Source: Holophagaceae bacterium (GTDB lineage: Bacteria > Acidobacteriota > Holophagae > Holophagales > Holophagaceae). Taken from it: a stretch of 13,586 nucleotides of DNA. The notes below the pieces were generated by a model. The model was not told the DNA's origin, made no database searches, and was given only the letters and a program-made list of their open reading frames with translations. Both the position numbers and the translations under genes were made by a program. Below, one piece after another: positions 3,052 through 6,703 of the stretch. Positions within the stretch are counted from its first letter, which is position 1; each line of letters begins with the position of its first letter. The DNA lies in assembly GCA_025353305.1 (NCBI GenBank), contig JANXQX010000111.1:1-13586 (forward strand), in the 5' to 3' direction.

Positions 3052-4419
3052 TCAGGCCCCGCCCAGGGCCATTTCCTCGAGCAGGATCGAAAGCCCGGCG
3101 CTGCTGCCGTACCAGCGGAGATCGCTGCCCAGCGCCACGATGCGAGTGAGGAAATCGCGGAGATTGCCCGCGAAGGTTATCTTGTCCACGGCTTCCCCAA
3201 CGACGCCATCGCGGATGCGCAGGCCTGACGCACCCACGCTGAGGTCGCCGCTGACTGGATCCACGGTGTGCAGGCCCATGAGCTCCGTGATCAGCACGCC
3301 GTTCCAGGCCATGCGGTGCAACTCGGCGGAGGCTTTGTCCCCGGCTTTCGGAAAGAGGTTGAACAGCGTCACGCCGGGGTTGCCACCCAGGCCGCGGCTG
3401 GCGGTCCCAGTAGGGTGTTCGCCCATTTCCGCGGCGGTCTTCAGGGTGTGCAGGTAGGTCTTCAGCACACCCTCTTCAACCAGCACGTTGCGGCGTGTGG
3501 AGAGACCTTCGCCATCCCAAGGCTCGCTGCCCAGGCCGCGCGGCAGACGCCCGTCATCAATCAAGGTGAGCAGGGGGGAAGCGATGAGCCCACCTTTCTT
3601 CCCGGCGAACAGGCTGCGCTGCTTGAGCACGGATTCCGCCGAGAGCATCCCCGCAATGATGCCGAAGAGATCCACGGCCACTTCCGGATGCAGCACCACC
3701 GGGTACTTGCCCGCAGGCAGCGGCCTGGGGTTCAATTTCTGTTCACCTTTGATAGCGGCCTCGGCGCCCACCGCCAGCAGGTCGAAGCTTTCCGGATGGC
3801 GCCCCACGTCCCAGTGCCAGGAGGCCTGGCGGTCTGCGCCAGCGGCCACGGCCAGCTCGATGCTGGCGGAACAGCTGGAGGCGACATCGTAGGCCCGCAC
3901 ACCCTTCTGGGTGAGCAGCAGGGACGCTCCTTCGCCATCGGCCCAGGTGGCGCCACGCACCGCCACGACTTTGGAGGACGTTTTCCGCGCCGAGTCTTCC
4001 AGAGCATGGGCCCGTGCAATTCTTTGTTCGGCGGTGAGACCGGCGCCCCGGCCGTCGAAGCGGCTGGGCAGATCATCCACACCTTCGGGATCCGCCTGCC
4101 GGATCCAGGGATCCTCATCGCCCAGATCGGACAGTTCCCAGGCCTGGTTGAAGAGATCCTTGAAATCAGGTCGCGAGAGATCCGTGGTGGTGGCGGAACC
4201 CACCTTGATGCCTTTGTCCCCCCACCGCAAAACCCGGACGCCGATGCCCCCGCGCTTGGAGACGCTCAGATCTTCCAGCTCGCCATTCTGGACCTTGGCC
4301 TTGCGCGACCGGGAAACGGAAACAAAAGCCTCGGCACCACAGGCTCCGAGTTTTTCAGCATGGCGGATGCCTTCCTGCAGACTGGCTTCCAGGGATTCGG
4401 AAATGAAGGATCGGAGCAT
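3052..4419 (-). CDS. pmbA: TldD/PmbA family protein, PmbA (TldE) type subunit
   Basis: Partner subunit of the TldD/TldE protease, which in Escherichia coli matures microcin B17 and degrades the CcdA antitoxin. At 455 residues it has the normal length (E. coli PmbA is about 450). Family features include an N-terminal domain with VQNGELEDLSVSKRGGIGVRV, a central PAGKYPVVLHPEVAVDLFG segment, and the C-terminal TFAGNLRDFLTRIVALGSDLRW signature. It has no HExxxH motif; LHPEVAVD stands in its place. This identifies it as the non-catalytic TldE-type subunit. The HExxxH-bearing TldD sits 67 bp upstream on the same strand, so the heterodimer is encoded as a unit. The ATG at 4419 has AAGG 6 nt upstream. 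The natural substrate here is unknown; no precursor peptide or toxin-antitoxin pair is visible nearby. Confidence 0.94.
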   Translation of the reverse strand: MLRSFISESLEASLQEGIRHAEKLGACGAEAFVSVSRSRKAKVQNGELEDLSVSKRGGIGVRVLRWGDKGIKVGSATTTDLSRPDFKDLFNQAWELSDLGDEDPWIRQADPEGVDDLPSRFDGRGAGLTAEQRIARAHALEDSARKTSSKVVAVRGATWADGEGASLLLTQKGVRAYDVASSCSASIELAVAAGADRQASWHWDVGRHPESFDLLAVGAEAAIKGEQKLNPRPLPAGKYPVVLHPEVAVDLFGIIAGMLSAESVLKQRSLFAGKKGGLIASPLLTLIDDGRLPRGLGSEPWDGEGLSTRRNVLVEEGVLKTYLHTLKTAAEMGEHPTGTASRGLGGNPGVTLFNLFPKAGDKASAELHRMAWNGVLITELMGLHTVDPVSGDLSVGASGLRIRDGVVGEAVDKITFAGNLRDFLTRIVALGSDLRWYGSSAGLSILLEEMALGGA

Positions 4420-4486: not shown

Positions 4487-6571
4487 TCAGATCACCTGCG
4501 GCAGGGGTTCCGCCGTACCGCCCACCACCAGGGCTGGGACCAGGATCGTGGGCAGGGCGTCGCTGACGGGAACACCCTGGCCGTCCTTGCCGCAGGTGCC
4601 GATGTCGAAATGGTGGAGATCCGAGCCGATGCGGGTGATGGAAGCCAGCACTTCGGGTCCACAGCCCGTGAGCGTCGCGTTTTTCACCGGGTACAGGGGA
4701 ACGCCCTTTTCCACCCAGTAGCCTTCAGTGACCTGGAACACGAAGTTTCCGGTGACCGTATCCACCTGGCCGCCGCCCATGTGTTTCACGAGCAGGCCGC
4801 GGTCCAGATCCTTCACGATGGCTTCGGGCGCTTCGTTCCCCGGGGCCAGGAAGGTATTGCGCATGCGGGGGATGGGGAGGTGCCGGTAGCTTTCCCGGCG
4901 GCCGTTGCCCGTGACGTCCACGCCCATCTTCCGGGCGGTCTTGCGGGACTGCAGGTAATTTTTCAGGATGCCGTCCTCGATGAGCACCACGCGGCTCACC
5001 GGATTGCCCTCGTCGTCCATGCTCTGGCTGCCGCGCTTGAAGGGCAGGGTGCCGTCGTCGATGATCGTGACGCCGCTCCCGGCCACCTTCTCGCCCAATT
5101 TTCCGGCGAAGGCGCTCATGCCCGCCAGCGCAAGATCCGCTTCCAGACCATGGCCGCAGGCTTCGTGGATCATGGTTCCGCCTGCGGACGAACTGAGCAC
5201 GACCGGGAAGGTGCCCGCGGGCGCCGGTTGGGCGTCAAGGGCCTGGATGCTCAGGCGCACGGCCTCCTTGACGATCTTCGTCACGGCTTCATCGGTGAAG
5301 AGCTCGAATCCTCTGGTCTCACCTAGGGCCTGGTAGCCACTTTGGAGTTGCACGCCATCGCCGGAAGTGGCGTTCAGGCGCAACACGCCTTGAGTGCGAT
5401 GATCGGCGCTGAGGCTCGCGCTCCAGGTGCCCTCCTTCATTTCGGCGGAGGCGATCCACACGCTTTGAGTGGAATCGCCATAGCCCACGGAAACCTGCTT
5501 GATGGCACCGGCGCGGAGCGTTTCGCCATGCTCCCGCGCCATGCTTTCCGTGCGGCGCACCAGCGCGACTTTTTCTGAAAGCGGGACCGTTGCCGGGTCC
5601 ATTTCCACAGGGCTGGGCGTGGGGTGGACGAATTCCCGCAATTCGGGAAGGCTTGCGGCGGCGCCAATTCCGGGCGCGGCTAGAAGCTTTGCATCTTCCA
5701 GTAATTCATCAAAGGTCGGCGCGATCAGGTCCGCGAAGCGCGTGGTCTCGCCTTCCATCACACGGAGGCTGGCGCCGAAGGTCTCGCTGGCGACCACATC
5801 TTCCATTCGGCCATCGTCCATGCCAAGGGCGCAGGCTCGCCGGTATTCCACGAAAACCTCGCCGTACTCTCCGCCCCTGGAGAGCAGGGCCTCCAGGATA
5901 TGTCGGAGTTCTTCAGATGAAAATTTCGAATTCATGCGGTCCTTCCAGCGGCGCTGCCGGGCAATCTTCCAGGTTGACAGAAGGTGGGCCTCGGCCCGAT
6001 CGAGGATCTCATTGAGATCGCTGCCGTCATTCACGATCAGCGCATCAGCATGAAGCTTTTTTTCCGCATCGTGGCTCTGCGACCGCAAACGGGCGAGTGC
6101 CGCGCCCACGGGAATTCCATCCCGCGAAAGCAGGCGAGGCAGGCGCAGGTCTTCGGGTGCCTCCACAACCCAGAATTCGTCGAAGTGATGGGCGCGGCCG
6201 CGTTCCACCCACAAGGCCGCATCCAGCACAGCTCCTTTGGAGTCCGGCGGAAGCGCCGCCAGCCGGGCATCCCTAAGGGCCTCGATGCGGGGATGAAGGA
6301 TGGCGTTGAGGCGCGTCCGGGCTTCGCTGTCTTCAAATATTTTTCCACCTAGAAGCGCGCGATCCAGGTTGCCATCGGTCTTCAGAATTCCAGGACCGAA
6401 CGCCCGCACCAGTTCAGCCAAGCCCACGCTGCCTGGCTCTACGGCTTCCCGGGCCAGCTGATCGGCATCAATGATCGCCCAGCCCCGCTTGGCCATCTCC
6501 AGGGCCACAAAACTCTTGCCCGCAGCGATGCCGCCACTGAGGCCGAGGAGCGGGAAGGGCGGGTTCAGCAT
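4487..6571 (-). CDS. coaE-tldD: CoaE-TldD fusion: dephospho-CoA kinase joined to TldD metalloprotease
   Basis: One uninterrupted 694-residue frame encodes two complete enzymes. Residues 1 to about 205 are dephospho-CoA kinase, the last step of CoA synthesis: Walker A GGIAAGKS at 13-20, IDADQLAR with D35, D37 and R41, LNAILHPRI, and a normal CoaE ending (DALIVNDGS). From Met213 onward follow 482 residues of TldD, almost exactly the E. coli length (481). They include the zinc motif HEACGHGLEAD (H469, E470, H474) and GTCGKDGQ with C660, the probable third ligand. No stop codon separates them. However, Met213 (ATG at 5935) has a good ribosome binding site of its own, so TldD alone may also be made. 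The chosen start (ATG 6571) has GGAGGG directly abutting it, closer than ideal; a TTG at 6616 is less likely. pmbA follows 67 bp downstream. A sequencing indel near the CoaE end is the main alternative to a real fusion. Confidence 0.9.
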   Translation of the reverse strand: MLNPPFPLLGLSGGIAAGKSFVALEMAKRGWAIIDADQLAREAVEPGSVGLAELVRAFGPGILKTDGNLDRALLGGKIFEDSEARTRLNAILHPRIEALRDARLAALPPDSKGAVLDAALWVERGRAHHFDEFWVVEAPEDLRLPRLLSRDGIPVGAALARLRSQSHDAEKKLHADALIVNDGSDLNEILDRAEAHLLSTWKIARQRRWKDRMNSKFSSEELRHILEALLSRGGEYGEVFVEYRRACALGMDDGRMEDVVASETFGASLRVMEGETTRFADLIAPTFDELLEDAKLLAAPGIGAAASLPELREFVHPTPSPVEMDPATVPLSEKVALVRRTESMAREHGETLRAGAIKQVSVGYGDSTQSVWIASAEMKEGTWSASLSADHRTQGVLRLNATSGDGVQLQSGYQALGETRGFELFTDEAVTKIVKEAVRLSIQALDAQPAPAGTFPVVLSSSAGGTMIHEACGHGLEADLALAGMSAFAGKLGEKVAGSGVTIIDDGTLPFKRGSQSMDDEGNPVSRVVLIEDGILKNYLQSRKTARKMGVDVTGNGRRESYRHLPIPRMRNTFLAPGNEAPEAIVKDLDRGLLVKHMGGGQVDTVTGNFVFQVTEGYWVEKGVPLYPVKNATLTGCGPEVLASITRIGSDLHHFDIGTCGKDGQGVPVSDALPTILVPALVVGGTAEPLPQVI
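5933..5946 (-). promoter_or_regulatory. Internal ribosome binding site and ATG for TldD
   Basis: On the minus strand GGAAGGA is followed after 4 nt by ATG (5935-5933), exactly where the TldD family length would place the N-terminus. This is a better-spaced site than the one at the fusion start, suggesting that free TldD can be translated besides the CoaE-TldD fusion. In the +1 frame a TGA (5934-5932) overlaps this ATG as ATGA, the usual form of a gene overlap. Confidence 0.55.
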
Positions 6572-6581
6572 CCCTCCATAG

Positions 6582-6616
6582 TAGGCCGTAGGCCGTGGGC
6601 GGTGGGCTGTGGGCAA
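6582..6616. repeat. Degenerate 7-nt tandem repeat, left block
   Basis: Five consecutive heptamers TAGGCCG, TAGGCCG, TGGGCGG, TGGGCTG and TGGGCAA lie in the region just upstream of the coaE-tldD start. The consensus is TRGGCNG. A related block in opposite orientation lies at 6676-6703. Confidence 0.7.
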
Positions 6617-6620
6617 CGAG

Positions 6621-6675
6621 TAGGATATTTTTTATAGAAGTTGGTTGCACCGAAGGCGCATCCACATTGAACCTG
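6621..6675 (-). promoter_or_regulatory. AT-rich segment, possible promoter region for coaE-tldD
   Basis: Between the two heptamer blocks lies an AT-rich run (about 6625-6637). On the minus strand it reads TATAAAAAATATCC and contains the -10-like TATAAA (6636-6631). No acceptable -35 hexamer sits 16-18 bp upstream. A small stem GCACC-GAA-GGCGC with one G-U pair lies at 6647-6659. Promoter function for the coaE-tldD-pmbA run is inferred from position and base composition. Confidence 0.25.
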
Positions 6676-6703
6676 CAGCCCACCACCTACAGCCCATAGC
6701 CAT
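6676..6703. repeat. Degenerate 7-nt tandem repeat, right block (inverted)
   Basis: Heptamers CAGCCCA, CCACCTA, CAGCCCA and TAGCCAT are the reverse-complement form of the 6582-6616 repeat. Aligned as an inverted pair, 6584-6613 and the reverse complement of 6674-6703 agree at 22 of 30 positions, and all eight differences are transitions. The block ends just short of the stop codon of the secreted-protein gene (6706-6708). Confidence 0.65.

Follow-up and report, generated by a model that had tools for sequence, protein, structure and literature searches.

A CoaE-TldD gene fusion with a conserved internal translation start, a candidate dual-product gene in Acidobacteriota

The gene described here joins a complete dephospho-CoA kinase (CoaE) to a complete TldD protease in a single open reading frame, and its sequence makes it quite probable that two proteins are produced from it: a CoaE-TldD protein translated from the first start and a free TldD translated from an internal start. 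It lies in a 13,586-nt stretch of Holophagaceae DNA (the window) and runs on the minus strand from an ATG at 6571 to a stop codon at 4489-4487, encoding 694 amino acids with zero internal stops (P0001, 4487..6571; identified by its open reading frame, Pfam matches and conservation). Ribosomes starting at the coaE ATG would read through into a 75-kDa CoaE-TldD, which would be the cell's only CoaE, while those starting at an internal ATG led by a Shine-Dalgarno (SD) motif would synthesize free TldD of 52 kDa. Either form of TldD could pair with TldE, yielding protease with and without an N-terminal CoA kinase, and the internal start would set the supply of TldD independently of CoaE. In one clade in which the internal start has been lost, the fusion would be the sole product.

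A preliminary description of this DNA had proposed an in-frame fusion of two intact-looking enzymes without naming the strand. The fusion is borne out, as is the length of 482 amino acids given for the TldD part, whose natural start is residue 213 (ATG, 5935-5933). The same description set a product of 75 kDa against one of 52 kDa; both sizes stand, but the internal start predicts the 52-kDa TldD beside the 75-kDa fusion, not one or the other.

Two enzymes in one reading frame

The CoaE part comprises residues 1-202 (5966..6571, minus strand) and is recognized by its Walker A motif (GLSGGIAAGKS) and conserved kinase residues. Pfam CoaE (PF01121) matches residues 9-184 with 155.3 bits (cut-off 27), and TIGR00152 reaches its cut-off on this part (117.9 vs 65.55); PRK03333, a 395-position dephospho-CoA kinase profile, stays below its own (170.8 vs 215). 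Across 71 non-redundant genes, G10, L11, G13, G14, I15, G18, K19, D37, H93, P94, R143 and R146 are at least 98% identical; these belong to the Walker A motif and the conserved kinase residues. Mycobacterial CoaE (6n39) is matched by sequence over residues 9-194 (E 3e-32), and Foldseek matches CoaE 4i1v (E 1e-14, target TM 0.86), the E values for the CoaE structures 4i1v and 6ari being about 1e-14 to 1e-13.

The TldD part, residues 213-694 (4490..5935, minus strand), contains three PmbA/TldD domains with best stretches at 238-277, 325-444 and 453-685, all above the Pfam cut-off. E. coli TldD is matched by sequence in the PDB over residues 220-687 (E 6e-79) and 5nj5 by Foldseek (E 3e-53). The best NCBIfam family is the TldD equivalog NF008006, whose cut-off of 513 bits is not reached (296.8 bits); by this measure the TldD half is a divergent TldD. 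HEACGH (469-474) and Cys660 align with the metal ligands of TldD, for which passages of PMC5810440 give HExxxH and a remote Cys. H469, E470 and H474 are present in 70/71 genes, the exception being locus L060 with its broken frame, and C660 is found in all 69 genes that have a letter there (L037 and L060 have gaps). A 455-aa tldE (pmbA; 3052..4419, minus strand), assigned by Pfam and NCBIfam, follows the stop codon of the fusion at a distance of 68 nt and encodes the expected heterodimer partner. At least two PF19289 matches occur in 67/70 fused genomes, and one each in G018, G070 and G077.

AlphaFold2, run on a 51-row alignment, folds both parts (pLDDT 91.2, pTM 0.89) and places the C-terminal helix of CoaE at 187-209, so that it would span most of the junction; the predicted arrangement of the two domains relative to each other is a lead only. 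Because TldD/E admits its substrates N-terminus first via a narrow channel, as described in part of PMC5810440, it is tempting to speculate that a CoaE placed on the N-terminal domain of TldD could affect substrate access.

Distribution of the fusion and its junction

How widespread is the fusion? A CoaE-profile search of 93 genomes from the class of Geothrix fermentans, a search not biased toward fused genes, found CoaE in 88: within a fused frame in 70, as a separate frame (201-264 aa) in 17 and as a fragment in one (G068), with none in the remaining five. In this class-wide search 69 of the 70 fused genomes gave one CoaE match, and G062 shows two fragments. The fused copy is the sole CoaE found in 25/25 fused genomes searched by profile, many of which are drafts of unstated completeness, and for this reason the dephospho-CoA kinase activity of the fusion is likely. 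CoaE is an essential enzyme that catalyzes the last step of CoA synthesis; since no second CoaE was found, the fused protein must, judging from gene content, be made. Among the best 120 of 1149 database rows (the query and 119 relatives), every protein has both domains and a length of 669-724 aa. The nearest nine relatives have 86-90% identity, followed lower among the same 120 rows by MAGs and cultured Geothrix species at ~72-82%.

By this distribution the fusion is old and family-wide, which refutes the suggestion in the preliminary description that a coaE stop codon had recently been lost. Separate coaE and tldD genes in related strains, which that description had named as evidence against the fusion, are absent from the 70 fused genomes, while 17 other genomes of the class do have separate genes. 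An assembly or annotation artefact, or a stop loss confined to one strain, is virtually out of the question: broken frames do occur in L089 (N-runs) and L060 (breaks within TldD), but an identical 10-codon junction is common to named Geothrix strains and to MAGs of many studies, which refutes this explanation. High-GC relatives contain long spurious frames, so frame length alone is no proof of fusion. A sample of 396 genomes from the phylum gave nine frames of at least 650 aa among the matches listed, all from genomes of the class list. CoaE also occurs in frames of 487-604 aa in eight genomes of this sample outside the class list (G213, G246, G274, G286, G096, G169, G267, G321); these may represent further fusions of CoaE, or simply frames left open by high GC content.

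The junction itself consists of residues 203-212 (IARQRRWKDR; 5936..5965, minus strand). Exactly 30 nt separate CoaE residue 202 from TldD Met1 in 108 of 109 adjoining loci, near-copies included, and counted per genome the 30-nt (10-codon) in-frame junction was computed in 69/70 fused genomes. The exception in both counts is L089 (genome G081), which has N-runs just past the start; inspected by eye, the codons of its junction keep the frame as well. Of 110 loci flagged as fused, L136 and L137 were dropped as unfused sisters (gap about -9300), and the remaining 108 were thinned to the 71 genes at <98% nucleotide identity; L060 was kept in this set despite its broken TldD frame, and L089 is not in it. 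Because the free CoaE of sister loci ends around residue 200-205 of the fusion (11 of 12 loci, from 11 genomes; L138 reaches ~223), the junction is, by this comparison, a piece of some ten residues that links the point where CoaE naturally ends to the natural TldD start. In the unfused sisters G091 and G093 (L136, L137), coaE lies ~6 kb downstream of tldE on the tldD-tldE strand. By eye, dus-type, htpX-type, acyl-CoA dehydrogenase and meaB-type genes stand between tldE and coaE in these two genomes.

The internal tldD start

The internal ATG, which is both TldD Met1 and fusion residue 213, occupies 5933..5935 (minus strand) and is marked by its codon conservation: residue 213 is ATG in 69/71 genes, GTG in one and GGC in one. 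Ahead of it lies the SD-like GGAAGGA (5940..5946, minus strand), supported by conservation and by a recoding test. Counting GGAG, GAGG or AAGGA 15 to 4 nt upstream of the start as an SD-like motif, we find one before TldD Met1 in 64/71 non-redundant genes, where 11.9 are expected from synonymous recoding (same peptides, each gene's own codon usage, 20,000 simulations). The excess persists when the set is thinned to <80% nucleotide identity (23/27 genes vs 6.0 expected) and further to 17 genes (14 vs 4.2); both counts exceed all 20,000 simulations, although relatedness among the sequences makes tail probabilities indicative only. Of seven other Met columns conserved in these genes, none has the motif in more than one gene (0-1 of 64-70), and all other in-frame ATGs together have it in 46/729. 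SD motif and start codon are thus conserved above chance, as would be expected of a dual-product gene.

The codons tell the same story. The Arg codon 210, after the junction Trp, is AGA or AGG in 53/57 genes, as against 113/2717 at 41 other Arg columns, of which the next highest is column 184 (25/67, AGG). The SD letters are kept even where the residue changes, as Ser AGT in L039, L041, L045 and L051, as Lys-Asp AAG GAC in the window's own lineage and as AGG AGC in L050, which has lost the junction Trp. This persistence of the letters while the amino acid changes points to selection that acts on DNA or mRNA at the internal start, not on protein. Synonymous recodings of the 45 nt upstream of the ATG are on average more strongly folded than the natural sequences (mean z +0.8 over 71 genes). 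SD pairing energy was dropped as a main argument, as it is not unusual within the gene: it is moderate in most members (about -5.5 to -6.4 kcal/mol), 15% of positions in the window gene pair more strongly than the internal SD, 3/32 other ATGs there, counted in any frame, equal or exceed it, and a value of -6.7 kcal/mol is reached by L086, a gene without the SD motif.

Further upstream, codons 197-201 form a conserved DNA-level element, CTTCTGTCAACCTGG, at -48 to -34 relative to the internal ATG (5969..5983, minus strand). These codons have the highest synonymous conservation of the gene, ranking 1 of 690 five-codon windows (55 genes, <88% identity), with a third-position difference of 0.10 vs 0.40-0.50 in the two domains. 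The family consensus is approximately CTTCTGKCANACTGG, about CTT CTG KCA NAC TGG (window 5983-5969), and the element may be part of the initiation region. A hairpin formed by the block from -48 to -31 is not supported: position -33 changes to C in five genes and -46 follows only in L075, while changes at -48 break the pair. RNAalifold gave no structure common to all 71 genes; the 27 genes sharing GGACCTGGAG have a consensus fold of -10.4 kcal/mol and the other 44 give none. No part of the window matches an Rfam family. Allowing up to two mismatches, the element matches 67 times in six genomes (9-13 each), vs 29 for a reversed control (2-8 each), a twofold excess that may reflect codon make-up; the three matches with zero mismatches are all at the fusion locus. 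Interpreting the element in terms of sigma-70 or sigma-54 was weighed by eye only and dropped.

SD motif, ATG and element occur together in 61/71 genes, and L038, L040 and L041 have SD and ATG with an incomplete element. A five-member clade (L042, L044, L086, L092, L096; SH-aLRT 99) in a quick, midpoint-rooted tree has lost both the SD and the element, and in L086 no start codon is left at the internal site. Outside this clade, L075 is without SD and element and L030 without the SD only. On this pattern the fusion with its internal start is likely the older state, the start having been dispensed with in one clade. If the signal-less clade has no other start, CoaE-fused TldD can apparently suffice. 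Frames of 609-1156 aa had hinted that tldE is also fused in this clade; this was rejected for L042, the one locus checked, where the long frame is out of phase with the fusion and tldE has its own plausible start within that frame. The frame in question (L042 6612-10004, plus strand, 1130 aa) is spurious, overlapping the fusion out of phase before entering tldE, a reminder that the length of a frame says little in these GC-rich genomes.

Alternative readings and known systems

If the gene served solely as an obligate bifunctional protein, every TldD would be fused and the internal start would be a vestige of a former coaE-tldD pair. No stop interrupts the junction in any fused genome read (69 computed, one by eye), the AlphaFold2 helix is predicted to cross it, and L042, L044, L086, L092 and L096 have no SD motif, L086 not even a start codon, so that this reading probably holds in that clade. 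For the family as a whole we regard it as unlikely, since a vestigial start would decay; in most lineages the motif has instead outlasted changes of the amino acid, and nowhere in the gene is synonymous constraint stronger than in the stretch immediately before it. An even less likely reading is that free CoaE is released at the Arg-rich junction by frameshifting or proteolysis, the fusion being a precursor only. Such a junction could be protease-sensitive, and in 20/71 genes the +1 frame meets a stop at position -2 or +1 relative to the ATG, but the CoaE helix is predicted to run through most of the junction, and frameshifting was rejected because no stop is conserved among the 71 genes in either the +1 or the -1 frame.

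Could the signal be a by-product of codon choice? Rare codons might slow the ribosome at the domain border to allow folding, leaving the SD likeness incidental. AGA, CTT and GCA/TCA are indeed rare in these GC-rich genes and could mimic part of the signal; AGA accounts for 105 of 3909 Arg codons, and 48 of the 105 are at the codon-210 site. We nevertheless consider such a pause very improbable: it is the letters GGAG/AAGGA that are conserved, not rarity (Ser AGT, Lys AAG-GA and AGG-AGC all keep them), the motif is kept in L048-L050 though third-position GC is only 45-57%, and a conserved ATG follows at fixed spacing.

Several reasons for the joining of the two enzymes may be considered under the preferred reading, a gene with two products. 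Matched expression, as put forward in the preliminary description, survives in part: a strict 1:1 ratio is unlikely in most members because the internal start predicts extra free TldD, and may hold in the signal-less clade. A modest answer would be that the fusion keeps CoaE supply in step with a portion of the TldD pool; it may also be that CoA, as the same description suggested, or precursors of CoA control the protease. Going further, we tentatively offer a regulated switch, in which the element at codons 197-201 would set free TldD against CoaE-TldD and tie peptide turnover to the final step of CoA synthesis, one clade having collapsed to the single fusion. The element has degraded together with the internal SD in that clade; were the switch true, the cell would determine what fraction of its TldD/E proteases bears a CoA kinase.

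Compared with free CoaE (PF01121, TIGR00152; 4i1v, 6ari), the fusion shares the whole domain, the Walker A motif and the fold, but its C-terminus continues into TldD, and no free copy was found in the fused genomes searched. M. tuberculosis CoaE and UPF0157 presumably form one chain. Parts of PMC2765170 deal with this M. tuberculosis CoaE and UPF0157, and parts of PMC3711429 with a DNA glycosylase/CoaE frame-transition cluster. Mouse bifunctional CoA synthase (2f6r) likewise joins CoaE to a second protein. In all three cases the partner is another one, and none is a protease. With E. coli TldD of TldD/E (5nj5; passages of PMC5810440) the fusion shares the whole of TldD, the HExxxH and Cys ligands and an adjoining tldE; unlike E. 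coli TldD, it bears CoaE at its N-terminus, and free TldD would come only from the internal start. Salmonella genes with two products by in-frame internal initiation, described in sections of PMC11005335, likewise give a long and an N-terminally short proteoform from one gene. Here the internal start stands at the border of two complete enzymes, and the short form would be the whole second enzyme.

CoaE joined or coupled to other proteins and in-frame internal initiation in bacteria are thus both known; what appears new is a CoaE-TldD join that also carries a conserved translation start. No paper containing both 'dephospho-CoA kinase' and 'TldD' was found among the PMC papers searched, and among the matches listed for TldD/PmbA and gene fusion, titles and the opening parts of abstracts mention no CoaE-TldD fusion. 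The fused proteins are present in public databases, where most of those with names are annotated as dephospho-CoA kinase and one source uses TldD protein; as far as the literature searches show, the sequence is recorded but not discussed. One family of soil and sediment bacteria has permanently tied its single copy of CoaE, an essential enzyme, to a widespread protease. The cellular role of TldD/E outside microcin processing is, to our knowledge, poorly understood, and retention of the fusion across an entire family hints that the two functions are connected. With a start signal embedded in the gene the idea is testable, two sizes of TldD being expected in most species and one in the signal-less clade. 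The arrangement would also illustrate how the second half of a fused gene can remain under control of its own.

In the surroundings of the gene, an imperfect inverted repeat (26-nt arms, 77%, with GTAGGC/GTGGGC-like units) lies at 6584-6701, between the fusion start and the next gene. At 413-2185 on the minus strand the window carries an aromatic amino acid hydroxylase gene of the PRK14056 type (NCBIfam E 9e-181), followed at 135-416 by a 93-aa frame that by eye resembles pterin carbinolamine dehydratase.
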